A DNA stretch of 25,106 nucleotides from positions 1 through 25,106 of IMG/VR virus record IMGVR_UViG_3300033980_000307; one strand, 5' to 3'. Shown one piece after another: positions 6,889-22,846 of the stretch. A program made the position numbers and the translations under genes. The notes under the pieces are model-generated. The model had not been told where the DNA came from, searched no databases, and saw only the letters and a list, made by a program, of their open reading frames with translations. This DNA is from a virus. Each line of letters begins with the position of its first letter. Position 1 is the stretch's first letter.

Positions 6889-9800
6889 ATGGCCGAGGCC
6901 CCTTTGCGCATTGAAGACTTTGCAAGTCCCGTGGGCCAAGCGCCTACGAAACCATCCGATAACCTGGAAGGGATTGCTACTGAAACAGCCCCTGATACCA
7001 GTCTGTTCGATGTGGCCAGTGAGTACGCCAAGGGCCTTGTGCAAGGCGTCACGGAACAAGCGCCATCAGCAGGTGGTTTGTACGGTGGTGCGCGTTTAGG
7101 CTTTCAAGCAGGGACAAGAATCCCTTTTGGCCAGCCTTATACAACGGTTGCAGCCACCGTAGCCGGTGGTTTAACAGGTCTACTGGGCGGCAATGCTCTG
7201 GGCGAGCAGATTGGCAAGCAGCTCTACGAAGAGCAGACCAACCCGGAACTCAAGCCTTTTCGTGAGGCAGGCAGGACCACGGGCGGCGGCTTGGCATACT
7301 TGCCCCTGGGTTACACCATTCCAGCTACGACGGGTGTTCGCGTGTTGGACTTCATGGGCAAGCTCGGTACGTTTGCCCGTTCGCATCCCATTCTTTACGG
7401 GGCGCTTGAGACGCAATCAGCAGTCGGTGCTGGTGTTGGCGCGGGAACGGCAGAACTCGTAGCCCCAGGCGAGACGCTTCCACGTGTCACTGGGGAAGTA
7501 GTTGGTGGTTTATTGAACCCATCGAAGCTGGTCACGACGGCTTCCTTGCCCTTTCTCGACCTTACTAAGCGGCTCGTGAGCCGTTTTTCGGCAGGCCAGC
7601 GTGAGGGGAGGGCGGCGAACCGCCTTGTCGCTATTTTAGAAGAAAACTTTGAGCCTGAATTGCGTCAGGCAGATCCCGAGAAGTGGGCAGACGCTTACAA
7701 CAAGGTTTATTTGCCTAACCTGATCCAGGCGCTGAAAGATCCAGGGCTTGTTCCAGGCATGACCTCGGCGCAAAAGACAGGCGATATTCCCCTGACGGTG
7801 CTTGAAACGTCGCTTGCACGACAAAATGATGAGTTTGGTCCGAAGGTGGCTGAGCAAGGGCGCAAGGCTCAAGAGGCTGTGATCCGCATGATCAACATGC
7901 TTAACCAGTCAGGCGATCCCACCATGTTGCAAGAAGCAGCACGGCTGCGTGACACCTATTTGCGCCAGCTTTTAGACGGTCGCTTGGCAGCGGCTGATGC
8001 AAGATCGGCTATTGCGATCGCAGGGATTAGTAAGGATAGCCCTGCTAATCGAGCACGAATTGGGCAGATTATTCGCGAAAACGTAGACAGTGCGCTTAAA
8101 GACGCCCGCGAAGTGGAGCACACGCTTTGGACCGATGTGCCCAAGGCGATCCGCGCTCAGATTGACGAGACGGTTACCAGTTTGAAAAAGCAGGGGGCAA
8201 GCGACGACCAAATCCGTGCTGCTGTTGCACGTTTAACCGATGGGCAAGCAGTTGTTGCTAGTAATTTTAGTAAGCAGTTTGAAACGATACGATCGGAGAT
8301 GTCTCCCGAATACTATAACCGGGAGTTTCCTGCAATCGTCAAGGACATCTACGGGCGTCTCTCTAAAGCACAAAACATCAAAAAGCTCTCTCCAGAGCAG
8401 CTCATGATGTTCGGTAAGGAGTCGAATCCGACCTTAGCTACTTCGTTTGAAACACTTCAAAAAGATCTACAGACGGCTAAAGCGACTATTGACGCTAACG
8501 CTGATAATGCCAAAAAACTTGCTAGCGTACTTAAGGGTAATAATTTCTATCTTGATGTCCTTACGCCAACATCTTCAACCACTAAACGGTTTGACGCTTC
8601 TTCCGCTGATCCACAGAAACGGGTTTTTGCACGGAAGTTAATAGATGTGACATTGGGTAGACTTCCTCGCGAAGAACTGTCTGAGGCAATGCGTGACTAC
8701 ACAATTTACGGTATTGGCAGGTCAGGAAAGCTAGAGGGTGTTGTCTCAAAATTATTTGATTCGGAACAACTCAAAGCCTTAAGGGACGCTGAAGCAGCTA
8801 AGCAAAACTTGGCATCACTTCAAGCTCAGGTTAAGGAAGCGCAAAAAGAACTTATCGAATCGGGCAAGGACTTCGTCCGCCGGGGTGCGATCAACGTAGG
8901 CGATTTGGTCAACGCACGACGCGACATGCTGCGCTTGGCCATGGACGCAGAGGCTAGGGGCGAACGCGCTAATTACGCTTTCTACTCCAAGTTCTCTGAG
9001 GCATTGCTCGATGACATGGATCAGGTGCGCAACCCTGCTTATGACGCAGCGCGTGCCTTCTCCAAGGAGTTAAACGACAGCTTCACGCGCACCTTTGCCG
9101 GTGATATGCGTGCCGTAGGCAAGACAGGAGCTGAGCGCATCCTGCCCGAGATCCTTGTCTCACGGGCCTTTAGCGGTAATTCGGATGTTGTGAACGCACG
9201 ATTACAGCAGATTCAAGACGCTGTCGATATGCTGCCTCGTTTACACAATCAATATGTTGCAGACTTCGGGCCTAACGATCCAAGGGCCAGGATCCTTGAA
9301 GATGCGGTCAACCGTTCCGGTGAGCGTGTTGTGTCGACCGCTGATGCTGTGGATCGCGCCACGCGTCTGGCAGCAGCGGCATCTATCGATCCCCAGACAG
9401 GTCGTCTGAACTCGTCGCGTTTATCACGTTGGATGAATGAAAACGAGACGCTCGTTAACAGCATTCCAGGTTTGCGTTACGACTTGGAAAACAGTCTTCG
9501 CGCGCAGAACTCGTTGGATCTGGTGACCAAGCAAAACTCTGCGATCGCTAAGAAGATTGATAAGCAGGTTGCCTTCTCAAAGTTCCTTGGCGAGAACCCT
9601 TCTGAAGCTGTGGCCGATGCCATTAATAGCAAGAACCCGGCGCTAAGTATGCGGCGTTTGGCTCAAGCAGCAAGCACCGGCATGGGCGGCGGAAGAAGCC
9701 AGGACATGGTGGATGCGTTGAAGTCGGCTGTCTACGACTACGCCTACGCCAAGGGAGGCGGCGATAAGCTTAGCTTTCAGGCCTACAACGATGCGTTCTT

Positions 9801-10488
9801 TTCCCCAACATCGACTGGCAGGCCTTCGCTTGCAGACATCCTGGTTGATAGCGGTGTGATGAATCGCGGCGAGATTGCCAACATCAAGAAGCTGACCGGC
9901 GAGTTGTCACGCATCGAAGCCGTCATGCAAAACAAACAAGTGCTCGATCGCGTGCTTGAGACCTCCGATGCCGTTGAGGATCTTGTGCTTCGCGTGGTCG
10001 GTGCTCGGATGGGTGCTGGATTGGCCAGTAAAGGAGCAGAAGCGGGCGGATCAAGCTTGATTGCCGCTTCGGCTGGCTCAAAGATGATGCGTGAGATGTT
10101 CGATCGCATGCCCAATGAGAGCGTGCGCGGCTTGTTAGAACAGGCTGCAAAAGACCCCGCCTTCATGGTTCGACTGCTTGAGAAGGGGCGCTCGGAGCAA
10201 GACAAAATCCGCTTTGCCAAGCAGTTGCGCGGCTATCTGATCAATGCTGGATTGACCGCCGCTGAGGGCGAAGAACCCACAATTGCTGCTGCACCACCAA
10301 CCGTTGCCGAGCGCACCGCCGAACGCTTGCTCAAGAAGCTTCCCCCCGCACCGCCTGCACGCGGTCTTTTAAGTGGTACCGTACCTCAGCCAGGACGCCC
10401 ACAGGCCCGTGCTCCGGGTGGAGCGCCTCAGCCGCAGGCAAGGGACATGCTGCGTCAGCTTTTCCCTTTTGACGCAGTGTTACGATAG
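6889..10488 (+). CDS. Large putative internal virion / DNA ejection protein (1199 aa)
   Basis: This is the largest protein in the window, starting at ATG 6889 after AGAGGT. Residues ~60-215 are Gly/Ala-rich and hydrophobic (GGLYGGARLGFQAG, TVAGGLTGLLGG, VGAGVGAGTAELV), a candidate membrane-interacting segment. From ~225 on it is charged and helical with coiled-coil stretches (for example AKQNLASLQAQVKEAQKEL). The last ~65 residues are Pro/Ala-rich (LPPAPPARG, PQPGRPQARAP) and end LFPFDAVLR. Size, helical build and position at the end of the structural block match the very large ejection proteins of podoviruses (T7 gp16 is 1318 aa). Unlike gp16, no lytic transglycosylase motif is visible at the N-terminus. 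Its 3' end overlaps the convergent nuclease gene by 34 bases. Confidence 0.5.
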   Translation: MAEAPLRIEDFASPVGQAPTKPSDNLEGIATETAPDTSLFDVASEYAKGLVQGVTEQAPSAGGLYGGARLGFQAGTRIPFGQPYTTVAATVAGGLTGLLGGNALGEQIGKQLYEEQTNPELKPFREAGRTTGGGLAYLPLGYTIPATTGVRVLDFMGKLGTFARSHPILYGALETQSAVGAGVGAGTAELVAPGETLPRVTGEVVGGLLNPSKLVTTASLPFLDLTKRLVSRFSAGQREGRAANRLVAILEENFEPELRQADPEKWADAYNKVYLPNLIQALKDPGLVPGMTSAQKTGDIPLTVLETSLARQNDEFGPKVAEQGRKAQEAVIRMINMLNQSGDPTMLQEAARLRDTYLRQLLDGRLAAADARSAIAIAGISKDSPANRARIGQIIRENVDSALKDAREVEHTLWTDVPKAIRAQIDETVTSLKKQGASDDQIRAAVARLTDGQAVVASNFSKQFETIRSEMSPEYYNREFPAIVKDIYGRLSKAQNIKKLSPEQLMMFGKESNPTLATSFETLQKDLQTAKATIDANADNAKKLASVLKGNNFYLDVLTPTSSTTKRFDASSADPQKRVFARKLIDVTLGRLPREELSEAMRDYTIYGIGRSGKLEGVVSKLFDSEQLKALRDAEAAKQNLASLQAQVKEAQKELIESGKDFVRRGAINVGDLVNARRDMLRLAMDAEARGERANYAFYSKFSEALLDDMDQVRNPAYDAARAFSKELNDSFTRTFAGDMRAVGKTGAERILPEILVSRAFSGNSDVVNARLQQIQDAVDMLPRLHNQYVADFGPNDPRARILEDAVNRSGERVVSTADAVDRATRLAAAASIDPQTGRLNSSRLSRWMNENETLVNSIPGLRYDLENSLRAQNSLDLVTKQNSAIAKKIDKQVAFSKFLGENPSEAVADAINSKNPALSMRRLAQAASTGMGGGRSQDMVDALKSAVYDYAYAKGGGDKLSFQAYNDAFFSPTSTGRPSLADILVDSGVMNRGEIANIKKLTGELSRIEAVMQNKQVLDRVLETSDAVEDLVLRVVGARMGAGLASKGAEAGGSSLIAASAGSKMMREMFDRMPNESVRGLLEQAAKDPAFMVRLLEKGRSEQDKIRFAKQLRGYLINAGLTAAEGEEPTIAAAPPTVAERTAERLLKKLPPAPPARGLLSGTVPQPGRPQARAPGGAPQPQARDMLRQLFPFDAVLR
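10449..10478. other. Hairpin at the convergent gene junction
   Basis: CTGCGTCA (10450-10457) and TGACGCAG (10470-10477) form a perfect 8-bp stem around a 12-base pyrimidine-rich loop, extendable by G-T wobbles at both ends. It sits across the overlapping 3' ends of the plus-strand ejection gene and the minus-strand nuclease gene. No U-tract follows on either strand, so it is not a canonical intrinsic terminator. It could be an RNA 3'-end stabiliser, a weak bidirectional terminator, or coincidence. Confidence 0.35.
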
Positions 10489-11147
10489 TAGTTATCTACC
10501 CGCTCAAGCCAGCCTGTCTTGTATTGGCTAAATTCGCGTCCGGTGGTTGTGAATACCTGCGTACCACCGGACTGCATAGCCATCATCACCACACCCATCT
10601 CAATCTCGGTGCCAAACTGATAGTCATGCGCTAAGGCGTAGGCGGATAACTGGTGGAAGTAGTCCGTGATCCATTCATGACGTTTCGGTTTGTTTGATTG
10701 CTTGAAGTCAATGATCGCAGGCTTTCCCTTGTACAAGCCCACCATGTCCGTGGTCCCTGCATAACGATTCGGGATGTACAAGGTAACCTCCGATCCCCAG
10801 ATCTCAGTGATGTGGTGAAACTCCTCGCGAATCAAGCGATACCCCATCTCGTAGCCCTTGATCGTCTCCCAGGTGTAAGGCGCAGGTAGATCCTGGCCCG
10901 CAATCATGTGCTCAATGACGCTGTGCATGTGCGTGCCGATCGTGGCGGCAGTCGTCTTGATGCGCTCAGCTTCCTCTTTACCTATGCGTTGCACCCATTC
11001 GTTGATCTTGACCCTGTCCTTGGTTGAGTCAAGAATGCGCGTCACGCTGGGTAGTCTTTGATCGCCATAGGTGCGACCCTCTTCGCCGTCATGACGTGCA
11101 AGCTTTTCGTAAGCATACTTACTGCGGATGGGGACTAAATCAGCCAT
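10455..11147 (-). CDS. PD-(D/E)XK nuclease (RecB/Cas4-like exonuclease)
   Basis: The product is 230 aa. The start is at 11147, preceded on the minus strand by GAGGAAA. Visible family motifs: LPSVTRIL near residue 32, GTHMH (71-75) as the upstream GxxxH-type motif, Glu120 in WGSEVTLYI, GTTDMVG with Asp134, IIDFKQ with Asp147 and Lys149 (the D-x-K core), and QLSAYA with Gln166. Together these are the metal-binding and catalytic positions of RecB-type nucleases. No Fe-S cysteine cluster as in Cas4 is present, so this is the simple phage exonuclease form. It likely processes DNA ends in recombination or degrades host DNA. Its start lies 13 bases inside the SNF2 helicase gene, implying co-translation, and its end overlaps the convergent virion gene. 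Confidence 0.85.
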   Translation of the reverse strand: MADLVPIRSKYAYEKLARHDGEEGRTYGDQRLPSVTRILDSTKDRVKINEWVQRIGKEEAERIKTTAATIGTHMHSVIEHMIAGQDLPAPYTWETIKGYEMGYRLIREEFHHITEIWGSEVTLYIPNRYAGTTDMVGLYKGKPAIIDFKQSNKPKRHEWITDYFHQLSAYALAHDYQFGTEIEMGVVMMAMQSGGTQVFTTTGREFSQYKTGWLERVDNYYRNTASKGKS

Positions 11148-12589
11148 TGTTTGATTTCCTCGCCAAGAACCTGAGATGCCACGTCAATCTTATCGCGCAG
11201 CGCTTTAACAATCTTCTCATCAACCGTCTTGGGCGCAATTAAGTCGACGTAAGTCACCTTGTTAACTTGACCTATCCGGTGAGCACGGTCCTCGGATTGC
11301 AATCGTTTTTCTAAATCAAAACTATTGCTGTAATAGACAACAACACTGGCCGCAGTGAGCGTGATCCCGTAGCCGCCCGTCTGCGGATTGCCTACGAAAA
11401 ACCGCATCGGGGAGCTTGGATCCTGGAACTTCTCAATCACACGCTGGCGTTCATCAAGCTTTGTGTCGCCGTAGTACACGCCTACCGAATCCATGCCGTA
11501 AGCTTTTTGCAGTGCAAGATGAATGGCTTCGATGTTGTGCCGATAGGTCGCCCAGATGATGACCTTGCCGCCTGTTTCTTCGATGACGTTGAGCAACTCC
11601 TGGATGCGATTATTAGGCAGCTCCTGTATGGTGCCGTCATCAAGCTTTGCAAATCCACACACGAGCTGGTGCAGTCGCATCAGTTGCGTTAAGGCGTTGA
11701 CCGTGGACACCGTGCCCGTGGCGAACTGTGCAAGCGCCATGGCTTTCATCTGGTTATAAGCGCGCTCTTGCTCGTCAGTCAGATCGACATCGCGCCGCAC
11801 AAAAAGCTTGTCAGGTAGATCCAAACATTCTTCCTTGGTCACTCGGAAGCTAAAGCGGCTGACCATCCTTTGTAACTCGTCAAGCCGCTGAAAACCGACA
11901 ACCTGCTTGAAAGCGTGCGTTGCAACACGGCGTTCGATGACTACAGCAAAGCGGGACTGGAATGCATAGAAGCTATCTGTGCCCAGGCAATCGGCAGACA
12001 AGAAGTTGCACTGCGAAAACAGATCCATTGGCGTCTTGGTGACAGGCGATCCAGTCATGATTCTGCGAAAGCGTGCAAGCCTTCCAAGTTTTGTAATGTT
12101 CTTGGTTCGTGCAGCGGTATGCGTCTTAATGGTCGTACTCTCATCGATTGCCATTAAGGCGCTATGAGACAGTAAAAAACGCTGTGCGAACAATCGTCCC
12201 TTGTCCGTGGACAACGCTTCAACGTTCATAACAAGGATTTTCAAATCCTCTGTCACCTCAAAGATGGCATCGAGCGCTGCCTTCTCAGCCTTGCGTGGCG
12301 AGGGCGTCCAAAGCGCCGCACGGTAGATGACATGCGAGGGCATGTGCTTTGGGATTTCTATATCGATCCAGTTTCTGTATACGCCCTTGGGCGCTACAAT
12401 CACCGCAGCGTTGACCTCACCGTTATCGTACAGCATGGCTAAGTTATTGATTAACATATAACTTTTGCCCGTTCCCATGTCAGCAAAGAGCGCAGCTAAG
12501 GGCTTGCGCCAGAAACGTTCTAGATACGCTTTCTGATGCTCAAAGGGTTTGTTTCGATACGGGTAATTGGCTAAGTATTGCTCTTCCAT
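11135..12589 (-). CDS. SNF2-type superfamily 2 helicase/ATPase
   Basis: The product is 484 aa. The start is at 12589, directly preceded by AAGGAGAAC on the minus strand; the same frame stays open to 12823 but runs antisense to another gene and lacks a better site. Helicase motifs in order: HQKAYL (18-23, Q-motif region), ADMGTGKSY (Walker A, Lys42), AIDEST (147-152, motif II as DEST rather than DEAH), MTGSPVTKT (motif III, from 178), KVIIWATYRHN (motif IV region), GGYGITLTAA (motif V), and QSEDRAHRIGQ (431-441, motif VI). The HRIGQ ending is typical of SNF2/Rad54-like translocases. In phages such proteins probably remodel DNA or act in recombination or replication start. It pairs with the nuclease downstream on the same minus-strand transcript. 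Confidence 0.9.
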   Translation of the reverse strand: MEEQYLANYPYRNKPFEHQKAYLERFWRKPLAALFADMGTGKSYMLINNLAMLYDNGEVNAAVIVAPKGVYRNWIDIEIPKHMPSHVIYRAALWTPSPRKAEKAALDAIFEVTEDLKILVMNVEALSTDKGRLFAQRFLLSHSALMAIDESTTIKTHTAARTKNITKLGRLARFRRIMTGSPVTKTPMDLFSQCNFLSADCLGTDSFYAFQSRFAVVIERRVATHAFKQVVGFQRLDELQRMVSRFSFRVTKEECLDLPDKLFVRRDVDLTDEQERAYNQMKAMALAQFATGTVSTVNALTQLMRLHQLVCGFAKLDDGTIQELPNNRIQELLNVIEETGGKVIIWATYRHNIEAIHLALQKAYGMDSVGVYYGDTKLDERQRVIEKFQDPSSPMRFFVGNPQTGGYGITLTAASVVVYYSNSFDLEKRLQSEDRAHRIGQVNKVTYVDLIAPKTVDEKIVKALRDKIDVASQVLGEEIKQWLI

Positions 12590-12605
12590 AAGTTCTCCTT
12601 TCTTG

Positions 12606-12623
12606 CAGGACTTGCATGTCCTG
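12606..12623. promoter_or_regulatory. 18-bp near-perfect palindrome, candidate operator
   Basis: CAGGAC (12606-12611), TTGCAT and GTCCTG (12618-12623) make an inverted repeat in which 16 of 18 positions are symmetric, including the central TGCA. It covers the putative plus-strand -35 element, the expected place for a dimeric repressor or activator site. Confidence 0.4.
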
Positions 12624-12630
12624 AAATCGA

Positions 12631-12640
12631 AGTGTACACT
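12631..12640. promoter_or_regulatory. 10-bp perfect palindrome overlapping candidate -10 elements
   Basis: AGTGTACACT is fully self-complementary and is flanked by an outer inverted pair ATCGA (12626-12630) and TCGAT (12647-12651). It supplies a TACACT hexamer on both strands. It may be a protein site or simply a symmetric -10 region. Confidence 0.35.
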
Positions 12641-12670
12641 GGCTTCTCGATTTAAGAAAGGAGAAAGGCG

Positions 12671-13003
12671 TTGGCTAAAGTCTATGCCGTTACAGAAACG
12701 GGGCAACACAACATTACTTCTGCATTGGATTTTGGAACGATCGAAGTGATCCTCCCAAACAATGTGCAGCTTGCATTTAGTGTCGCACCTACCGTCGCTC
12801 GCGTGCAGCGCAAACTTGAGCACTTCACCGACGATGATTATTTGCTTTTCATTGGCGACCCCACGGCGATCGGCATTGTCAGCGCCGTTGCAGCGTCCAG
12901 GAACAATGGACGATACAAATGTCTTAAGTGGGATCGCGTAGAGAGGCGATATATTCCTATCCAGGTTGATCTGTTTCCCAAGAAAGGAGAAAGTTATGAG
13001 TGA
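12671..13003 (+). CDS. Conserved phage protein of unknown function, TTG start
   Basis: The product is 110 aa. The start is TTG at 12671, supported by AAGGAG at 12658-12663 with seven-base spacing; no nearby in-frame ATG exists. The protein is compact: a beta-rich N-terminal half (GTIEVILPNN) followed by RKLEHFTDDDYLLFIGDP, AIGIVSAVAA, NNGRYKCLKWDR and YIPIQVDLF. I recognise this layout from small proteins encoded next to SSB-like genes in aquatic phages, but know no function for it. No membrane segment or enzyme motif is visible. It is the first gene of the rightward replication transcript and overlaps the next gene by eight bases. Confidence 0.8.
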   Translation: MAKVYAVTETGQHNITSALDFGTIEVILPNNVQLAFSVAPTVARVQRKLEHFTDDDYLLFIGDPTAIGIVSAVAASRNNGRYKCLKWDRVERRYIPIQVDLFPKKGESYE

Positions 13004-13544
13004 TTTGTTTGAACAAGATGCCGATGCACTTCAGGTCGGCGATGACAAGCTGGCTGGCATTGCCCAGCTCGCCAAGCGTGCCAAGCTCTTGGAGAAGGAA
13101 ATACTAGAGTTAGAGACAAGCCTGAGCGAGCGCCAGGATAATTACCGCAAGCTCACCGAGGAAACACTGCCCGAGGCGTTTGCCGAGCTTGGGCTTAAGA
13201 GCTTCGCTATGGAGGATGGCAGTAAGATTGAAGTCAAGCAGTTTTACAGCGCTACGGTCAGCAAAGCCAAACAGGCCGAAGCCTTTGCGTGGCTGCGTGA
13301 ACGGGGCTATGACGACATTATCAAGAACACGGTGACGGTGCGTTTTGGCCGTCGCGAAGACGAGCTTTGTGCTCGTTTACTGGATCTTCTCTCGAAGCAA
13401 GGCTTTCCGGCTGAGCAAAACGAGAAGATAGAACCCCAGACCCTTAAGGCCTGGGTTAAAGAGATGCTGACCACGGGGCGCGAAGTACCTTCGGATTTAT
13501 TTGGGGTGTACGTGGGCAACAAGGCCAGCATCAAGTCAACTTAA
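12996..13544 (+). CDS. Conserved phage protein with N-terminal coiled coil, unknown function
   Basis: The product is 182 aa. The start at 12996 is chosen over an in-frame ATG 30 bases upstream because it follows AAAGGAGAAAGTT and begins just before the preceding stop. Residues ~14-50 are a clear coiled coil (AKLLEKEILELETSLSER). Next comes LPEAFAELGLKSFAMEDGSK, a mixed region IKNTVTVRFGRREDE, and a C-terminal block QTLKAWVKEML plus DLFGVYVGNKASIKS. The family is familiar from aquatic phages beside single-stranded DNA-binding genes, with no assigned role that I know of. Its position suggests a replication or recombination accessory role; this is inference. Confidence 0.8.
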   Translation: MSDLFEQDADALQVGDDKLAGIAQLAKRAKLLEKEILELETSLSERQDNYRKLTEETLPEAFAELGLKSFAMEDGSKIEVKQFYSATVSKAKQAEAFAWLRERGYDDIIKNTVTVRFGRREDELCARLLDLLSKQGFPAEQNEKIEPQTLKAWVKEMLTTGREVPSDLFGVYVGNKASIKST

Positions 13545-13567
13545 TCACGAACCAAGGACCGAGAATC

Positions 13568-14353
13568 ATGGCAAAGACAGATGTAGCAGTAAAAGAAACC
13601 GGCACAGCGCTTGCATTAGCGAGCATGTTTGAAGCAGATGCCGGAGCAGGTCTTGAGCAGATGGACAAGGATGACTTTGCGCTTCCTTTTCTTAAGGCAC
13701 TGACCAATAACTCCGACGAGATCGGTGTTATTGAAGGTGCCATGCCTGGGATGATCTTTAACACAGTGACCAAGGAGCTCTTCGACGGCAAGAAGGGTAT
13801 CGTTGTGGTCCCGACCGCCTACGTACGGCAGTACATTGAGTGGGCACCGCGTGGCAGCGGTTCGTCGGGAGCACCTGTGCAGATCTACCCAGCAACGTCC
13901 GATATCCTTAGTCGCACCAATCGCGTTCCGGGCGACAACAAGGACTATCTGGACAATGGGAACTACATCGAGAACACCGCCAATCACTACGTGATGATGG
14001 TGACCGATGAAGGCATCCCGGTTCCTGCCCTCATTGTGATGAAATCCACTCAGCTTAAGAAGTCACGCAAGTGGAACAGCATGATGATGTCGACCAAGCT
14101 CATGGGGAAGAACGGTCCCTACACGCCGCCAATCTACAGCCAGATGTATCGGCTCACGACCACGGCAGAGAGCAACGACAAGGGCAAGTGGTATGGCTGG
14201 GAAGTCGAGCGCATTGGCTCAATCCCGGCGGATCAGATCGCATCGGTTTACATGGCTGCAAAGCAGTTTGCAGAGTCCGTGAACCGTGGGGAGGTAAAGG
14301 TTAAGCACGAGTCGGAAGGCGCGACTATGCAAGACGCGAACATCCCGTTCTGA
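13568..14353 (+). CDS. Putative single-stranded DNA-binding protein
   Basis: The product is 261 aa; ATG 13568 is the first start after the previous gene. The N-terminal part has DFALPFLKALTNNSDEI and GMIFNTVTKELFDGKKGIVV, then a beta-rich core (VVVPTAYVRQYIEW, NHYVMMVTDEGIPVPALIVM) followed by basic STQLKKSRKWNSMMM and YGWEVERIG. The chain ends in a flexible acidic tail finishing DANIPF. A terminal acidic IPF tip is the hallmark that bacterial SSB uses to recruit partners (E. coli SSB ends DDDIPF). I recognise the body as a phage family often labelled SSB-like, but no standard OB-fold signature can be proved by eye. Context fits: it lies directly before the primase. Confidence 0.6.
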   Translation: MAKTDVAVKETGTALALASMFEADAGAGLEQMDKDDFALPFLKALTNNSDEIGVIEGAMPGMIFNTVTKELFDGKKGIVVVPTAYVRQYIEWAPRGSGSSGAPVQIYPATSDILSRTNRVPGDNKDYLDNGNYIENTANHYVMMVTDEGIPVPALIVMKSTQLKKSRKWNSMMMSTKLMGKNGPYTPPIYSQMYRLTTTAESNDKGKWYGWEVERIGSIPADQIASVYMAAKQFAESVNRGEVKVKHESEGATMQDANIPF

Positions 14354-14378
14354 TTGAATTGGGGGAAAGCCGGAGCAC

Positions 14379-14392
14379 CGGGGAGTACCCCG
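14379..14392 (+). other. Small hairpin before the primase gene
   Basis: CGGGG (14379-14383), loop AGTA and CCCCG (14388-14392) form a compact stem-loop in the 55-base gap between the SSB-like and primase genes. It is followed by a five-codon frame (MRKQK, 14395-14412) whose stop overlaps the primase ATG as ATGA. It has no U-tract, so it is not a terminator; a modest effect on translation start or mRNA stability is possible. Confidence 0.25.
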
Positions 14393-14408
14393 CTATGAGA
14401 AAGCAGAA

Positions 14409-15929
14409 ATGACTGACTTTAAAACGATCTTTCGTGGGCTTGACATTGCCCATGGCACCTACAAGATTGAGAAGGCGCGGGGAGATGGCAAACAAGCGGG
14501 AAAGGCCGTGGTGGTTAGGCAACCACCAACTGATGAGCTTTGGGTCAAGCATCTTCAGGGGGTTGAGCCTTCTCTTGGCATTATTCCTATCCGTGCTGAT
14601 AACAGTTGCACTTGGGGTTGTATTGACATTGATCAATATCCCTTGGATCACAAAGGTGTTGTGGAAAAAATTGCGAAGTTAAAGCTTCCACTCGTGGTGT
14701 GTCGCAGCAAGTCAGGCGGCGCACATGTGTTTCTCTTTACCACCGAACCTGTCCCTGCGGCGGACATGCGCAAGTACCTGACTGCGGCAGCGGCACTGCT
14801 AGGTGAGTCAGGCAGGGAGATCTTCCCTAAGCAAAGCGAGATTCTTGTTGACCGTGGCGATACGGGCAACTTCTTAAACCTTCCCTACTTTGGCGGCGAT
14901 GAAACGCTCCGTTATGCGATTAAGAGCGACGGCAGTGCAGCAACGCTCGAGGAGTTCTACCGCCTTTACGAAGAGGCTGTGCAAACGCCTCCGCTGTCTT
15001 TCCCCGAGGCTCCGGCACAACCCGAGCAGCCCATCAAGGATGGACCGCCATGCCTCCAAACGCTTTGTGCGCAAGGCTTTCCTGAAGGCACAAGAAACAA
15101 CGGTCTTTTCAACATCGGCATCTACCTGAAACGGACAGGCGCATCGAACTGGGAAGACAAGTTATCGGAGTACAACCACAAGTTCTTTGGCCCACCGCTT
15201 GGCTTATCTGAGGTTCAGATCATTGTTAAGCAGTTGACCAAGAAAGATTACAAGTACAAGTGTAAAGATGCGCCCATTAATAGTTTTTGTAATGCTGGTC
15301 TGTGCCGTACTCGCAAGTATGGCGTTGGCGCGGATGGTCCTGATTCGCCTCAAATGTCTGCCCTCTCCAAATACAATAGTGAACCTCCGCTATGGTTTTT
15401 GGATATCAACGGCAGGCGTGTTGAGCTTGACACCGAGAGTCTACACAACCAAGCGGCGTTTCAAAAGGCCTGCATGGAAAAGGTCAATCTATTGCCTCCG
15501 ACCCTGCGAAAGCAAGACTGGGAGCAAGTGCTCAACGCGCTCCTAAGGGAGATGGTGGAGCTTGAACAAATCCAAGAGGCGTCCGAAGACACGACACTGA
15601 CAGGACGCTTCACTGCACTGCTTGAAGAGTTCACCACGCACATTCAACAGGCCATGGACCGTGATGAAATTCTCTTGGGCAGACCCTGGGTGGATGAAGA
15701 AGACCAGCGCGTTTACTTTCGCATCAAGGATCTGGAAGACCACCTCACGCGCAATAACTTCAAGGGCCTGAGTGCCCCGAAAATGGCTCAGCGTCTGCGT
15801 GATTTAGGCGGTGAGCCGTTGCCCTTGTTCCTTAAAGGACGCACCACACGCGTGTGGCGTATGCCGTGCTTCCCGAAACAAGAAGCACCCTTTGAGACAC
15901 CAACCGCTAAGAAAGGGAGTCCGTTCTAA
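14409..15929 (+). CDS. Archaeo-eukaryotic-type primase (AEP/PrimPol-like) with Cys cluster
   Basis: The product is 506 aa. Residues ~1-175 carry AEP primase signatures: GCIDIDQY with Asp73 and Asp75 (metal-binding DxD), VCRSKSGGAHVFLF with Ser102-Gly-Gly and His106 (nucleotide-binding sxH motif), and ILVDRGDTGNFLNLPYFGGD with Asp148 (third metal ligand). Residues ~215-300 form a second domain with EGTRNNGLFNIGIYLKR and four candidate metal-ligand cysteines: Cys215, Cys285, Cys294 and Cys299 (PPC...YKC...SFC...GLCRTRKYG). The C-terminal ~150 residues are helical, possibly winged-helix (HLTRNNFKGLSAPKMAQRL), and end GSPF. The protein should make RNA or DNA primers for the phage polymerase. No helicase domain is attached. 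Its stop overlaps the next start (TAATG). Confidence 0.8.
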   Translation: MTDFKTIFRGLDIAHGTYKIEKARGDGKQAGKAVVVRQPPTDELWVKHLQGVEPSLGIIPIRADNSCTWGCIDIDQYPLDHKGVVEKIAKLKLPLVVCRSKSGGAHVFLFTTEPVPAADMRKYLTAAAALLGESGREIFPKQSEILVDRGDTGNFLNLPYFGGDETLRYAIKSDGSAATLEEFYRLYEEAVQTPPLSFPEAPAQPEQPIKDGPPCLQTLCAQGFPEGTRNNGLFNIGIYLKRTGASNWEDKLSEYNHKFFGPPLGLSEVQIIVKQLTKKDYKYKCKDAPINSFCNAGLCRTRKYGVGADGPDSPQMSALSKYNSEPPLWFLDINGRRVELDTESLHNQAAFQKACMEKVNLLPPTLRKQDWEQVLNALLREMVELEQIQEASEDTTLTGRFTALLEEFTTHIQQAMDRDEILLGRPWVDEEDQRVYFRIKDLEDHLTRNNFKGLSAPKMAQRLRDLGGEPLPLFLKGRTTRVWRMPCFPKQEAPFETPTAKKGSPF

Positions 15930-16441
15930 TGACTGATGTCTATCGCATCAAGGACATGGATCTTGCCATCATCGGCATGTGTTCGACCTGGGATAACAAC
16001 ACACTGGTTGAGCGCGTGGTCTACGACGGGAACGTTGTCCGAAACACATTGATCGAGGATCACAACATGTCCTGGGACGAGGCCGTCTCGTTCATCGACC
16101 ACAACATTGTCAATAGTTATATCGGTCCTGGTACACCGATCCTGGTATGGCCCATGGAATGGGAGGAAGTTCATGAGCACACAAAAAGTATTCGGCCCTC
16201 CAGGTACGGGCAAGACCACTTACCTGCTGAGCGTGGTTCAAGAGGAACTAGCCAAGGAGACGCCGTCAAACAAGATCGGGTACTTCGCATTCACGCGCAA
16301 AGCGGCGAACGAGGCTCGGGATCGGGCGATTGCGAAGTTCCCCCACTTGAATCCGGTCAGCGACTTTCCCTGGTTCCGAACACTCCACAGTCTTGCATTT
16401 CGGTGTCTTGGGATCAACAGCAAAGAGATGATGCAAGATGA
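15929..16441 (+). CDS. Small conserved phage protein with anomalous out-of-frame extension
   Basis: The start at 15929 (TAATG overlap, AAGGGAG upstream) opens a 170-codon frame. Residues 1-~81 look like a genuine compact protein (LIEDHNMSWDEAVSFIDHNI, SYIGPGTPILVWPMEWEE), a small phage family I recall as roughly 80-90 aa, normally ending just after the TPI-V-P phrase. From residue 82 on, the frame overlaps the UvrD helicase gene by 269 bases and reads low-complexity Arg/Gly/Ser text (GQDHLPAERGSRGTSQGD), the +1 translation of the helicase P-loop region. The extension is therefore probably not selected as protein: either the normal stop was lost, or a sequencing or assembly change removed it. 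Function unknown. Confidence 0.55.
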   Translation: MTDVYRIKDMDLAIIGMCSTWDNNTLVERVVYDGNVVRNTLIEDHNMSWDEAVSFIDHNIVNSYIGPGTPILVWPMEWEEVHEHTKSIRPSRYGQDHLPAERGSRGTSQGDAVKQDRVLRIHAQSGERGSGSGDCEVPPLESGQRLSLVPNTPQSCISVSWDQQQRDDAR

Positions 16442-17675: not shown

Positions 17676-19537
17676 GAACCATGTCGTTATTCCCCACGCC
17701 TTCGGAGTGGGTCCCACCGTCCTCCTTTCCCGATCTGTCGGATGCCAAGGAGATTGCAATTGACCTCGAAACTTGCGACAAGAACCTGGAACGTTTCGGC
17801 CCCGGATGGCCAAGAAATGACGGCTACATTGTCGGTTACGCCTTTGCTGTTGACGGATGGCGAGGGTACTACCCAGTTGCTCACGAGGGTGGAGGTAACC
17901 TTGACCGTGGGATTGTTGAGCGATTCGTTCGACGTGTGCTTGAGCTTCCAGCCCCCAAAATCATGCACAACGCAGCCTACGACCTTGGATGGCTTCTCGC
18001 CTCTGGATTTAATGTGCGGGGTCGAATCATTGACACCATGGTCGCTGCTGCTTGCATCGATGAAAATCGATTCAGCTACGCCCTCAACGCCCTCGGTTTC
18101 GATTATCTCAAAGAGGTCAAGTCTGAGCAGGGACTAAAAGAAGCCGCCCAAGACTTTGGCGTGCATGCCAAAAAAGAACTCTGGCGCTTGCCTGCTATGT
18201 ATGTGGGCGACTACGCTGAACAAGACGCTGCGCTCACACTAAAGCTCTGGCAGACACTTAAGATTGAACTTCGCAAAGAAGAAGTCGAATCGATCTTCGA
18301 GCTTGAGTCCGATCTGCTTCCTATCTTAGTTGGCATCACCAAGCGTGGGATTCGTTTTGATCGCGATCGCGCACTTAAGCTCGTGGGCGAGATGCAAGAC
18401 AAAGAAGCCCAGCTTGTCAAATCCATTCGCAAAACATGTGGGGCACCGGTAGACATCTGGGCCGCAGCCAGCATCGCCATCGGGTTTGACAAGCTCGGGA
18501 TCCAATACCCAAGAACCAACACGGGCCTGCCAAGCTTTACAAAAAGCTTTCTGGATACGCACGAGCACCCGATCTGCAAGCAAATCGTTGAAGCACGCGA
18601 GCTCAACAAGACCCACGGCACGTTCTTGCAGCCTTACCTGGACTTCTCCGCTCACGATGGCCGCATCCATCCGCACATCAACCAGATTCGATCCGACGAT
18701 GGCGGCACGGTCACAGGCAGGCTATCCATGGCAAGCCCCAATCTCCAACAGGTTCCCGCCCGACACGAGATCATTGGGCCGTTAGTCAGGGGCCTTTTCC
18801 TGCCCGAAGAAGGGCAGATGTGGGCCGCCAATGACTTCTCGTCTCAAGAACCGAGGATCCTGGTCCACTATGCAAGCCTCCTGGGCCTGCCCGGGTCCGA
18901 TGACATGGTCACCGCCTACCAAAACAACCCCCGCACGGACTTCCACCAAATGGTTGCCGATATGGCCGGGATTAAACGCAAAGCTGCCAAGACAATCGGT
19001 TTGGGGTTGATGTACGGCATGGGCAAACAAAAGCTTGCCAACAGTCTTGATCTTCCGATTGATGAGGCGGAAGAATTAATCCGCAAGTTTCATGAAAAAG
19101 TACCATTTTTACGTGGCACCGTCGATGCCGTGATGCGCCGCATCGAGCATCGAGGCTCAGGCGGTGCGATCCGCACGCTCCAAGGCAGGAAGTGCCGCTT
19201 CCCGCTTTGGGAACCCACTGAGTGGGGGATCAACAAGGCATTGCCTTTTGAAGAAGCCTCCATTAAATACGGCCCAAGGATCAAGCGGGCTATGACGTAC
19301 AAAGGGTTGAATAGGCTGATCCAAGGCTCTGCTGCTGATCAAACCAAGAAGGGATTGATTGAGCTTCACAAGGCAGGCTTTACGCTGCTGCTCCAGGTTC
19401 ACGACGAGATCGCGCTATCGGTTAACAGTCGCGAAGAGGCGCAAGAAGCAGCAAACGTTATGGCCAATGCCGTGAAGCTTGAAGTGCCTTCCATTGTTGA
19501 TGTAGAGACTGGACCTTCTTGGGGAGAGGCTGCATAA
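17672..19537 (+). CDS. polA: Family A DNA polymerase with 3'-5' exonuclease domain
   Basis: The product is 621 aa, starting with ATGA overlap at 17672 (a second Met lies three codons on). The exonuclease domain shows AIDLET (Asp31, Glu33), HNAAYDLGWL (Asp104) and YAEQDAALT (Tyr181, Asp185), so proofreading appears intact. The polymerase domain shows TVTGRLSMASPNLQQVP (347-362), motif A NDFSSQEPR (Asp388), motif B/O-helix RKAAKTIGLGLMYG (436-449) and motif C QVHDEIALS (His577, Asp578). There is no room for the 5'-3' nuclease of bacterial Pol I. In the O-helix the residue matching E. coli Phe762 is Leu444 (TTG, 19001-19003). In published virioplankton studies this residue class has been linked to slower, more accurate synthesis and less aggressive lifestyles. 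This is almost certainly the phage replicative polymerase. Confidence 0.95.
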   Translation: MRTMSLFPTPSEWVPPSSFPDLSDAKEIAIDLETCDKNLERFGPGWPRNDGYIVGYAFAVDGWRGYYPVAHEGGGNLDRGIVERFVRRVLELPAPKIMHNAAYDLGWLLASGFNVRGRIIDTMVAAACIDENRFSYALNALGFDYLKEVKSEQGLKEAAQDFGVHAKKELWRLPAMYVGDYAEQDAALTLKLWQTLKIELRKEEVESIFELESDLLPILVGITKRGIRFDRDRALKLVGEMQDKEAQLVKSIRKTCGAPVDIWAAASIAIGFDKLGIQYPRTNTGLPSFTKSFLDTHEHPICKQIVEARELNKTHGTFLQPYLDFSAHDGRIHPHINQIRSDDGGTVTGRLSMASPNLQQVPARHEIIGPLVRGLFLPEEGQMWAANDFSSQEPRILVHYASLLGLPGSDDMVTAYQNNPRTDFHQMVADMAGIKRKAAKTIGLGLMYGMGKQKLANSLDLPIDEAEELIRKFHEKVPFLRGTVDAVMRRIEHRGSGGAIRTLQGRKCRFPLWEPTEWGINKALPFEEASIKYGPRIKRAMTYKGLNRLIQGSAADQTKKGLIELHKAGFTLLLQVHDEIALSVNSREEAQEAANVMANAVKLEVPSIVDVETGPSWGEAA

Positions 19538-19623
19538 TGAAACCTGTAGTCCATGCTGTTCTCCTCAAGGCGCTTCCCGCGCACTTCGGCCCGTGGTTCA
19601 AGGACCACGGGTCTTTTTTATGA
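19537..19623 (+). CDS. 28-aa ORF translated across the terminator hairpin
   Basis: The ATG at 19537 overlaps the polymerase stop (TAATG) and is well placed behind GGGGAGAGG (19521-19529). The frame runs through the whole terminator stem and ends in TGA at 19621-19623, overlapping the next gene's ATG (ATGA). The peptide starts MKPVVHAVLLKALPAHFG and has no known motif. Good ribosome spacing and overlaps on both sides suggest it is translated. If so, ribosomes would open the hairpin, and the ORF might act as a leader that lets transcription and translation continue into the downstream genes. This is inference. Confidence 0.35.
   Translation: MKPVVHAVLLKALPAHFGPWFKDHGSFL
19588..19620 (+). terminator. 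Rho-independent terminator after the polymerase gene
   Basis: CCCGTGGT (19590-19597) pairs perfectly with ACCACGGG (19604-19611) around loop TCAAGG. G-T and G-C pairs extend the stem to ten pairs (19588-19613). It is followed by TCTTTTTT (19612-19619). This is the strongest terminator signal in the window and closes the replication transcript. Confidence 0.85.
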
Positions 19624-19925
19624 TTAAGAAGAAGAAAAAGAAAAGCGGTCCCCCGCGCCTGTGGTTCAAGCGGGAGAAGAAACCCATCTCGCCCTCGCGC
19701 AGGCAGACAAAACCATGGTGTACGGTGATGCTGCCGCTTGAGGCTTATGCCATGCTGACTGAGCTGAGCGATTTTCATATTGTTTCTCGCTCAACGATCG
19801 CTCACCGCTTGATCTACGCAGAATTTTTACGTACACTTTCTCGCGTAGACCCCGAGAAAGCTAAAGAAATGGAGAAAGAATTTGAAGCGCGCTTTCGTAA
19901 TCCCGTTATCGAACGTGTTGAATGA
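19620..19925 (+). CDS. Basic protein with possible ribbon-helix-helix fold
   Basis: The product is 101 aa, starting with the ATG directly after the terminator U-tract. It has no ribosome site of its own at normal spacing; translation is best explained by coupling to the 28-codon ORF. The first ~33 residues are extremely basic (MIKKKKKKSG, then RLWFKREKK and SRRQTK). Residues ~34-72 (CTVMLPLEAYAMLTEL, SRSTIAHRLIYAEFL) have the strand-helix-helix spacing of ribbon-helix-helix DNA-binding proteins, and a charged helix follows. It could be a small transcriptional regulator, but the RHH assignment is by eye only. It overlaps the next candidate gene by 44 bases. Confidence 0.6.
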   Translation: MIKKKKKKSGPPRLWFKREKKPISPSRRQTKPWCTVMLPLEAYAMLTELSDFHIVSRSTIAHRLIYAEFLRTLSRVDPEKAKEMEKEFEARFRNPVIERVE

Positions 19926-22041: not shown

Positions 22042-22227
22042 ATGAGCCCAGCTTACAAATTTGCGATGCTCGCGGCGTGGTTGGAGGGCTACGCCGAGGG
22101 CCTTCCTGACTACTGCACGAATGAGAAGTTCAAGATCAAAGAGGCAGCAGAGTTGCTCATGGAGGTCTACGAGCAACGCATGAAGGACAAGGAGGAGTGG
22201 AAGCAACACGCAGGAGATAGGGCATGA
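22042..22227 (+). CDS. 61-aa hypothetical protein
   Basis: ATG 22042 lies two bases after the previous stop; a GTG at 22003 in the same frame would give 74 aa but has no ribosome site. Helical and acidic: FAMLAAWLEGYAEGLPDYC then IKEAAELLMEVYEQRMKDK. The stop overlaps the next start. No family assigned. Confidence 0.6.
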   Translation: MSPAYKFAMLAAWLEGYAEGLPDYCTNEKFKIKEAAELLMEVYEQRMKDKEEWKQHAGDRA

Positions 22228-22535
22228 ACAATGCCGAGATTCTCAAGCTGGCTCGGCGCACGGGCGTGCTGCTTTCAGGCAGGCCCGAGCATGAAGAAGC
22301 GGTCAAACAGTTTAGTAAGCAGTTGCTTAGCCAGTACAAGGCGCTGACGCCGACACAAGAGCGGTACTTACAGGCGCTTGATGACTGGATGTCGCTTGCG
22401 GGATTAGCCAAAAGTTTTAGTTGTACGCCGCAAAATGCGCTCAAGATGATACGAGCGCTCGAGGCAAAAGGTCTGGTTGTTAAGACGATGCTCTTTCGAG
22501 GGGCTTGGGCGTTTTACTACAGGAGAAAGTTATGA
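22224..22535 (+). CDS. Small winged-helix-like DNA-binding protein
   Basis: The product is 103 aa, starting at ATGA overlap 22224 behind GGAGATAG. Residues ~40-100 (LTPTQERYLQALDDW, SLAGLAKSFSCTPQNALKMI, RALEAKGLVVKTMLFRG, AWAFYYRR) have the helix-turn-helix and wing spacing seen in MarR-like winged helices. It may regulate phage or host genes. Paired with a second HTH-like gene directly downstream with a four-base overlap. Confidence 0.6.
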   Translation: MNNAEILKLARRTGVLLSGRPEHEEAVKQFSKQLLSQYKALTPTQERYLQALDDWMSLAGLAKSFSCTPQNALKMIRALEAKGLVVKTMLFRGAWAFYYRRKL

Positions 22536-22846
22536 CTTTGATACCAAAGGAGCGTCGAAAGCAGATGATCTTCGATTACCTGCGCGGGCTCAAGAATCCC
22601 GTTACGGCAGAGCATGTCGGGGAGAAGTTCAAGATCACCAAGCGCCGTGCTGACCAGTTGCTGGTTGAGTTGGCAGCAGACGATTTAGTCATTAAGACAA
22701 AAGGCTATAAGCAGCAAGAGGTGACCTGGAAAAAGACGATGGTGATCTGCTTTGCAGTCAAGGATGAATACAGAACCTACAAGAAACGAGAACCTAAGGT
22801 AGCGAGGGCTTGGCACGATCCATTTGGACTGGGGACGAGAACATGA
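22532..22846 (+). CDS. Small winged-helix-like protein, 104 aa
   Basis: The start at 22532 follows AGGAGAAAG and overlaps the previous stop; a longer in-frame start at 22505 is rejected as unsupported. Residues ~8-60 (ERRKQMIFDYLRGL, TAEHVGEKFKITKRRADQLL, VELAADDLVIKT) have a typical winged-helix pattern, followed by a basic tail (YRTYKKREPK). No characterised family recognised. Possible partner or paralogue of the preceding HTH protein. Confidence 0.6.
   Translation: MTLIPKERRKQMIFDYLRGLKNPVTAEHVGEKFKITKRRADQLLVELAADDLVIKTKGYKQQEVTWKKTMVICFAVKDEYRTYKKREPKVARAWHDPFGLGTRT

Follow-up and report, generated by a model that had tools for sequence, protein, structure and literature searches.

The question raised by this locus is what the 81-base gap between two divergent genes (12590-12670) does, and whether its palindromes are operators at a decision point between two opposing transcripts, as proposed in the first-pass annotation, or parts of something else. 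The window, i.e., the whole stretch of DNA analysed, corresponds to a virus record 25,106 bases long and is probably a fragment, because several related contigs measure 50-68 kb. Only two of its genes lie on the minus strand (10455-11147 and 11135-12589, as read from the list of open reading frames), which leaves one divergent junction and bears out the statement that this is the sole divergent gene pair of the window. The leftward operon starts with a helicase at an ATG codon (12589, minus strand), and the next gene in the opposite direction starts at a TTG codon (12671, plus strand). The plus-strand run encodes relatives of phage Pam3 gp32, gp33 and gp34, followed by a primase, a UvrD helicase and DNA polymerase A. 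Among 80 loci with a gp32-like gene, the helicase is divergent from this gene in 77, codirectional with it in one (L077) and missing from the stretch covered in two. At its far end, the nuclease gene overlaps a late gene for a 1,199-aa protein tail to tail by 34 bases (10455-10488). The features of the junction are collected in Table 1.

Table 1. Features at and around the divergent junction; transcription starts and the hairpin are predictions, and N stands for any base.
Feature	Position	Strand	Basis
PD-(D/E)XK exonuclease-like gene, second in the leftward operon	10455-11147	-	phrog_298, 1.4e-48; PF12705 below its cut-off
SNF2-type helicase gene, first in the leftward operon	11135-12589	-	PF00176, 5.9e-22; phrog_62, 2.5e-119
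Shine-Dalgarno AGGAG of the helicase gene	12595-12599	-	sequence
Dyad, arms CAGGAC and GTCCTG around TTGCAT; on the minus strand a predicted 5'-terminal hairpin of 6 bp in the leftward RNA	12606-12623	-	arms covary across relatives
Forward -35, TTGCAT (TTGACA in some relatives, e.g., L067 and L333)	12612-12617	+	TTG 16-19 bp before the forward -10 in 100/102 regions
Predicted leftward transcription start (± 2)	12624	-	7 nt past the reverse -7 position
Reverse -10, TACACT, shares 12635-12636 with the forward -10	12631-12636	-	TANNNT in 101/102 regions, middle bases vary
Forward -10, TACACT, spacer 17	12635-12640	+	TANNNT in 96/102 regions
Predicted rightward transcription start (± 2)	12647	+	7 nt past the forward -7 position
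Candidate for a reverse -35 (weak), TTTCTT, separated by 17 bp from the reverse -10	12654-12659	-	sequence; 2/6 match to TTGACA
Shine-Dalgarno AGGAG of the Pam3_gp32-like gene	12659-12663	+	sequence
Pam3_gp32-like gene, opens the rightward replication operon	12671-13003	+	PF23992, 3.7e-25

The palindromes that had attracted attention are present in the gap. The 18-bp near-perfect palindrome CAGGACTTGCATGTCCTG pairs at eight of nine positions and contains TTGCAT, and the perfect 10-bp palindrome AGTGTACACT at 12631-12640 supplies TACACT on both strands (12635-12640 on the plus strand, 12636-12631 on the minus strand). The outer ATCGA/TCGAT pair is also there (12626-12630 and 12647-12651), but it is present in only one of the 102 regions compared below and is a chance feature as judged from that comparison. 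A perfect 12-bp inverted repeat (12593-12604 and 12654-12665) is simply the two Shine-Dalgarno sequences facing each other. In dinucleotide shuffles of the whole window, 26.8 perfect 10-bp palindromes are expected and 24 were observed; 18-mers with at least eight of nine pairs number five as opposed to 3.2 expected. When the 81 bp were shuffled locally 5,000 times, the 10-bp type arose in 7.6%, the 18-bp type in 1.1% and both in 0.6% of the shuffles. Composition alone gives the palindromes no claim above chance, and the case rests on conservation.

Two sets of upstream regions were compared, as far as conservation is concerned. Set 1 drew on 80 gp32-like loci, phage DSL-LC04 and 19 of 80 helicase loci, of which 47 were inspected; the others were duplicate contigs, too short, or members of a distant group (L142, L144-L161) that was left out of the 102 regions and from which 12 loci entered only the analysis with the best-promoter scan. 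The 101 regions of set 1 included four without an anchor match (L074, L077, L078, L081); the remaining 97 comprised 67 distinct sequences and were reduced to 43 representatives. Set 2 comprised 240 more loci, many from contigs already sampled; 236 were usable, 235 were scored and 54 fell below the score, leaving 59 distinct segments that are not identical to set 1, although close relatives of set 1 remain among them. With a matrix of both promoter cores, a score of 8 was reached by 181 of the 235 scored loci of set 2 (4.3% of shuffles) and a score of 12 by 162 (0.4%). Together, the two sets give 102 distinct anchored regions, the window included, and the patterns or the matrix used for anchoring contained the reverse -10.

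Base-sharing -10 elements on opposite strands, the hallmark by which bacterial bidirectional promoters were compared here, lie at 12631-12640, and both are intact as TANNNT in 95 of the 102 regions, whereas the perfect palindrome persists in only 48. From outside to inside, the five pairs of the palindrome are symmetrical in 95, 71, 83, 75 and 102 of the regions. The reverse hexamer is mostly TACACT, TACAAT, TATACT or TAGACT, so it varies where a -10 tolerates variation. Because symmetry is kept at the critical positions and relaxed at the others, the 10-bp palindrome is best explained, on this comparison, as two overlapping -10 hexamers and not as an operator. Since the 102 regions had been chosen with the reverse -10 in the pattern or matrix, we recounted with forward-only anchoring, i.e., with no filter on the reverse strand. 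A TTG-N16..19-TANNNT promoter was then found in 214 of 238 distinct regions of both sets and was absent in 24, and an A stood at the reverse -7 position in 195 of the 214, against a background of 30%.

The element is also specific in its position. Exact AGTGTACACT occurs as one copy in 9 of 17 records (window included), always at this junction according to a coordinate check, and is absent elsewhere in them, while the looser TTGC-N18..20-TACACT is also seen away from the junction in 5 of these 17 records. An unchanged copy of the window's 29-base promoter was found in 10 IMG/VR contigs, all of them close relatives already sampled. In DSL-LC04 (OR003939), the nearest annotated relative found, the gene order is the same and TTGCAA-N17-TACACT is present with AGTGTACACT, together with a CGGG/CCCG dyad recognised by reading; its DNA is otherwise diverged, with one megablast match that covers 4% of the window at 74%. 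Two entries of the DSL-LC04 record deserve mention in their own right: the deposited start of its helicase gene (13466-14830) looks about 28 codons short compared with the similarity, with a GTG near a ribosome site by reading, and 18249-18506 is deposited as an "RNA polymerase sigma-G factor", whose counterpart in the window, as assigned from the order of the genes (15929-16441), gave no match to Pfam.

We consider the gap to be a conserved and probably ordinary sigma70-type bidirectional promoter, with a probability of roughly 0.8 on the comparative evidence. The description of the gap as a divergent control region thus holds, with a conserved -35 and -10 on the plus strand and a conserved -10 on the minus strand. 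By consensus both promoters are weak: a stricter promoter scan of the gap returned no promoter, and in several loci the best match of a simple scan falls elsewhere. The reverse -35 candidate coincides with the complement of the ribosome site of the plus-strand gene, from which it is not separable, and the scan chose TTCTTA with a spacer of 16 in the nearest relatives of the window, TTTCTT with 17 in L017 and L027, and TTTCTA with 17 in DSL-LC04 (L162). The predicted starts are 23 bp apart. In the available part of Middlemiss et al. (PMC10268837), bidirectional promoters are defined for working purposes by starts 7-25 bp apart, and in that of Warman et al. (PMC12825309) a distance of 18 bp is the commonest, with 10 and 23 bp also common. 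The gap resembles the bidirectional promoters of E. coli and Salmonella described by Warman, Grainger and colleagues, as far as these two sources were available, in the overlap of opposite-strand -10 elements, in its place between divergent genes and in the predicted 23 bp (PMC12825309; PMC10268837). It differs from them in that it belongs to a phage family, that both predicted outputs are mRNAs of one replication module, and that a covarying dyad surrounds the forward -35. A partial literature search, which included the accessible part of PMC9599517, returned no report of this region or of phage bidirectional promoters, which does not prove that none exists.

The dyad over the forward -35 is the one unusual feature and is only partly explained. 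In relatives, the arms around TTGCAT or TTGACA change together, e.g., CAGGAC/GTCCTG, CGAGAC/GTCTCG, TGGGG/CCCCA, AAGGTTG/CAACCTT, AAGCTG/CAGCTT and others. Because whole-sequence alignment with MAFFT misaligned the arms, their covariation was assessed by arm swapping, in which the pairing of a region's own arms is compared with that of arms borrowed from other phages. Own arms paired better than swapped arms in both sets (z 6.6, n = 43, for set 1; z 8.0, n = 59, for set 2) and in thinned samples (P 0.002 for set 2, n = 10; z 6.0 for all regions, n = 18). These are the compensatory changes looked for in a 5'-terminal mRNA stem-loop, and they are partly compositional: z was 2.9-4.6 with the right arm reversed, -0.5 to 2.4 with it shuffled, 0.6-2.6 with another segment and -0.9 to 1.3 with the complement taken without reversal, as opposed to 6.1-8.4 for the real arms. 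Judged by these controls, part of the signal is complementary composition and the remainder is true pairing. Single stems are modest, as only 15 of 43 outscored 95% of the shuffles made from them, and the stem cut-off was passed in 61 of the 102 regions. A lack of conservation of the palindromes in related phages would, by the first-pass annotation, count against it; the promoter cores and the pairing of the dyad are conserved, but the exact palindromes often are not.

If the dyad acts as RNA, only the leftward one of the two predicted transcripts would carry it, because it lies upstream of the predicted rightward start. Folded as 28 nt, it gives -8.7 kcal/mol on the minus strand and -10.1 kcal/mol on the plus strand. 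In a strand test based on the asymmetry of G.U and A.C wobbles, set 1 favoured the leftward strand (P 2e-4), and set 2 gave z -0.8 (P 0.79). Pooling of the sets gave P ≤ 0.004 against swapped arms; direct sign tests were not significant. Interior wobbles numbered 11 on the plus and 12 on the minus strand, and single folds favoured the minus strand in 16 and the plus strand in 21 of 43. Since the result of set 1 was not replicated in set 2, the hairpin on the leftward RNA is treated here as putative, and its position relative to the reverse -10 is not independent evidence because it is largely fixed by the spacing of the -35 and -10. That the dyad is the 5'-terminal hairpin of the leftward helicase/nuclease mRNA thus has about an even chance of being correct. 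Rfam yielded no match to any curated family up to E 1 for 12400-12900. In six representatives, L057, L060, L061, L064, L065 and L067, a second hairpin (TCGC-TTTT-GCGA and variants) begins at the predicted rightward start or a single base away from it.

The precedent for such a structure is the 5'-terminal stem-loop of ompA and papA. According to the available part of a review (PMC3997798), a 5' hairpin hinders RppH in converting the 5' end, and an mRNA degraded from this end can be stabilised by it. As in these stem-loops, the stem predicted here would begin at most a few bases from the 5' terminus and just upstream of an open ribosome site (PMC3997798, as far as available); unlike them, the putative hairpin of the window is encoded around the -35 of an opposing promoter.

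The strongest alternative holds that the forward promoter works in one direction only, that a phage dimeric repressor binds the 18-bp dyad over the -35 and blocks the rightward operon, and that the leftward genes start elsewhere. It accounts for the position of the dyad exactly on the -35 and for mismatches with no reproducible strand bias, as expected for DNA, and phage repressors and operators can co-vary. A rigid dimer site, however, should not look like the 61 passing stems, which share no common half-site (32 different left arms) and span outer lengths of 12-25 bp, both even and odd, and the arm spacing varies even among the related L249, L335 and L348. Because of these lengths and the number of left arms, a hairpin accounts for the dyad better than a rigid protein site with two-fold symmetry would, as far as its comparative features can tell. 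The conserved reverse -10 would also be left unexplained by a one-way promoter. Overlapping divergent phage promoters under repressor control are known from the lambda pRM/pR type, which the gap resembles in being divergent, short and of phage origin, but it differs in having no repressor-type gene at the junction and no conserved operator sequence.

The candidate repressors were not found with every dyad. The small RHH-like protein encoded at 19593-19925 has homologues in 15 of 19 genomes, window included, and speaks for an operator. Pfam returned no match for this protein itself; when its AlphaFold model (mean pLDDT 76) was used for a fold search, mostly ribbon-helix-helix proteins came out on top, all with E above 2, so the label RHH-like is plausible on the model. 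The product is small and basic, with SPSRR..W.T and RHH-like helices, and its gene directly follows the DNA polymerase gene. A 13-row profile of the protein matched 3 of 11 genomes, four of which had been picked because the earlier search missed them; in a search that was not exhaustive, nothing was found in the other eight, seven of them contigs of 54-63 kb and possibly incomplete. These eight include the genomes of the dyad-bearing L338, L350, L357 and L359. The product of 22224-22535 has a sub-threshold MarR match and was found in 2 of 19 genomes, window included, and the third product named earlier (22505-22846) has no significant family match. Within the sensitivity of the searches and the completeness of the contigs, neither candidate regulator was found everywhere that the dyad occurs. 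A MarR-like operator is thus not supported, nor is an RHH-like one in general, although in the group that carries the RHH-like protein such an operator may exist. Taken as a whole, the repressor explanation seems unlikely, and the palindromes as operators of a decision point find no support in view of the missing half-site, the overlapping -10s and the candidate regulators not found with every dyad.

Far less probable is a role in DNA structure, with the dyad extruding or marking a replication start. The site does have the helicase gene on one side and the replication genes on the other, and the conserved pairing does not clearly prefer either strand, but the stems have little length, no direct repeat in 12300-13000 has more than two copies, the change in skew is small and as gene direction predicts, and the inverted locus L077 has the genes and no dyad. 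That the palindromes arose by chance in a plain intergenic gap agrees with window counts close to those of shuffles; it is contradicted by conservation and covariation and is hardly credible. Least probable of all is an N4-like system, in which a virion RNA polymerase uses a hairpin promoter; this reading was rejected because its only evidence is a weak N4_RNAP_helical match of the 1,199-aa late protein (E 0.015, 14.4 bits), below the family cut-off of 27 bits and matched in none of the other 16 records (so that no match above the cut-off to this one helical-domain family was found in all 17), in a protein with no relative of solved structure (best E 0.6, a designed helical repeat) whose closest relative with an annotation is called a "DNA transfer protein". 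This late protein (6889-10488) has few relatives, 2 among 50,697 phage records, and matches its DSL-LC04 counterpart, which carries that annotation, at 38%.

Some loci depart from the layout of the window. In the inverted locus L077 (815-3336), the helicase and nuclease adjoin the gp32-like gene in the same direction; TTGAAA-N17-TAGAAT is present upstream of the gp32-like gene, the reverse hexamer is spoiled (TATTCG) and the stem score is in the lowest 4% of the 102. L074 is codirectional by reading, as its upstream stretch reads as the end of a codirectional nuclease; it has TTGCAA-N17-TACAAT with a reverse hexamer TATTGT that is still tolerable and a weak stem (lowest 12%). Many loci of the distant group, upstream of the helicase in L142-L161 and at the 023Pt_psg01 record ends (L166 and L167), have TTGACA about 25 bp before TGTCAA, a layout readable as two interleaved facing promoters. 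In L144 and L156, for example, their predicted starts would be about 37 bp apart, outside the definition of 7-25 bp. A best-promoter scan of the joined record ends did not reveal the layout of the window in HTVC023P and HTVC027P. In another related group, many of L389-L409, an element resembling GACGGTTnAGTCAACCGCCGAT, a CGGTT/AACCG hairpin, recurs upstream of the helicase, before the next gene.

According to the bidirectional promoter reading, the host sigma70-type RNA polymerase would read the gap as a single promoter. HTVC027P, a distant relative, is lytic and encodes no RNA polymerase according to the available part of PMC12753301, which is in line with use of the host polymerase. The forward TTGCAT-N17-TACACT would start the rightward replication operon (gp32-like, gp33-like, gp34-like, primase, UvrD helicase and DNA polymerase), and the reverse -10, which has two bases in common with the forward one, would start the leftward helicase and exonuclease operon. 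One polymerase would be bound at a time, in either orientation, so that both halves of the replication and recombination module could be switched on from one site. In E. coli, as described in the accessible part of PMC12825309, competition between polymerases at bidirectional promoters matters mainly when activity is raised. Because the gene content of both operons serves DNA replication and recombination, their joint expression is more plausible than a choice of one fate over the other.

The leftward RNA, beginning at about 12624, would form the dyad hairpin, which is encoded around the forward -35, right at its 5' terminus. Decay that depends on the 5' end would presumably be slowed by this hairpin, with the ribosome site left open. 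This full account, a bidirectional promoter combined with a leftward 5' hairpin, is moderately likely in view of the sequence comparisons. A further extension is offered more tentatively: the same stretch of about 18 bp would provide one transcript with its -35 region and, through its other strand, the opposing transcript with a protective hairpin at the 5' terminus, and in L057-L067, with a hairpin at the rightward start too, the 5' hairpin of each mRNA would overlap the promoter region of the other. Selection would then keep the pairing and not the sequence, and the choice of the polymerase would be coupled to the life of the message.

Since both -10s persist in 95 of 102 regions and the perfect palindrome in 48, the palindromes would largely be by-products of an overlapping two-way promoter and not a proven on/off switch, which cautions against a common inference, as a palindrome over a promoter need not be an operator. 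Should the dyad form the 5' hairpin of the mRNA that runs the other way, one segment of DNA would serve two strands at once. Bidirectional promoters have been defined from maps of transcription starts; here, comparative sequence alone indicates one that is maintained across a phage group, with selection acting on both -10 elements and not on the palindrome.
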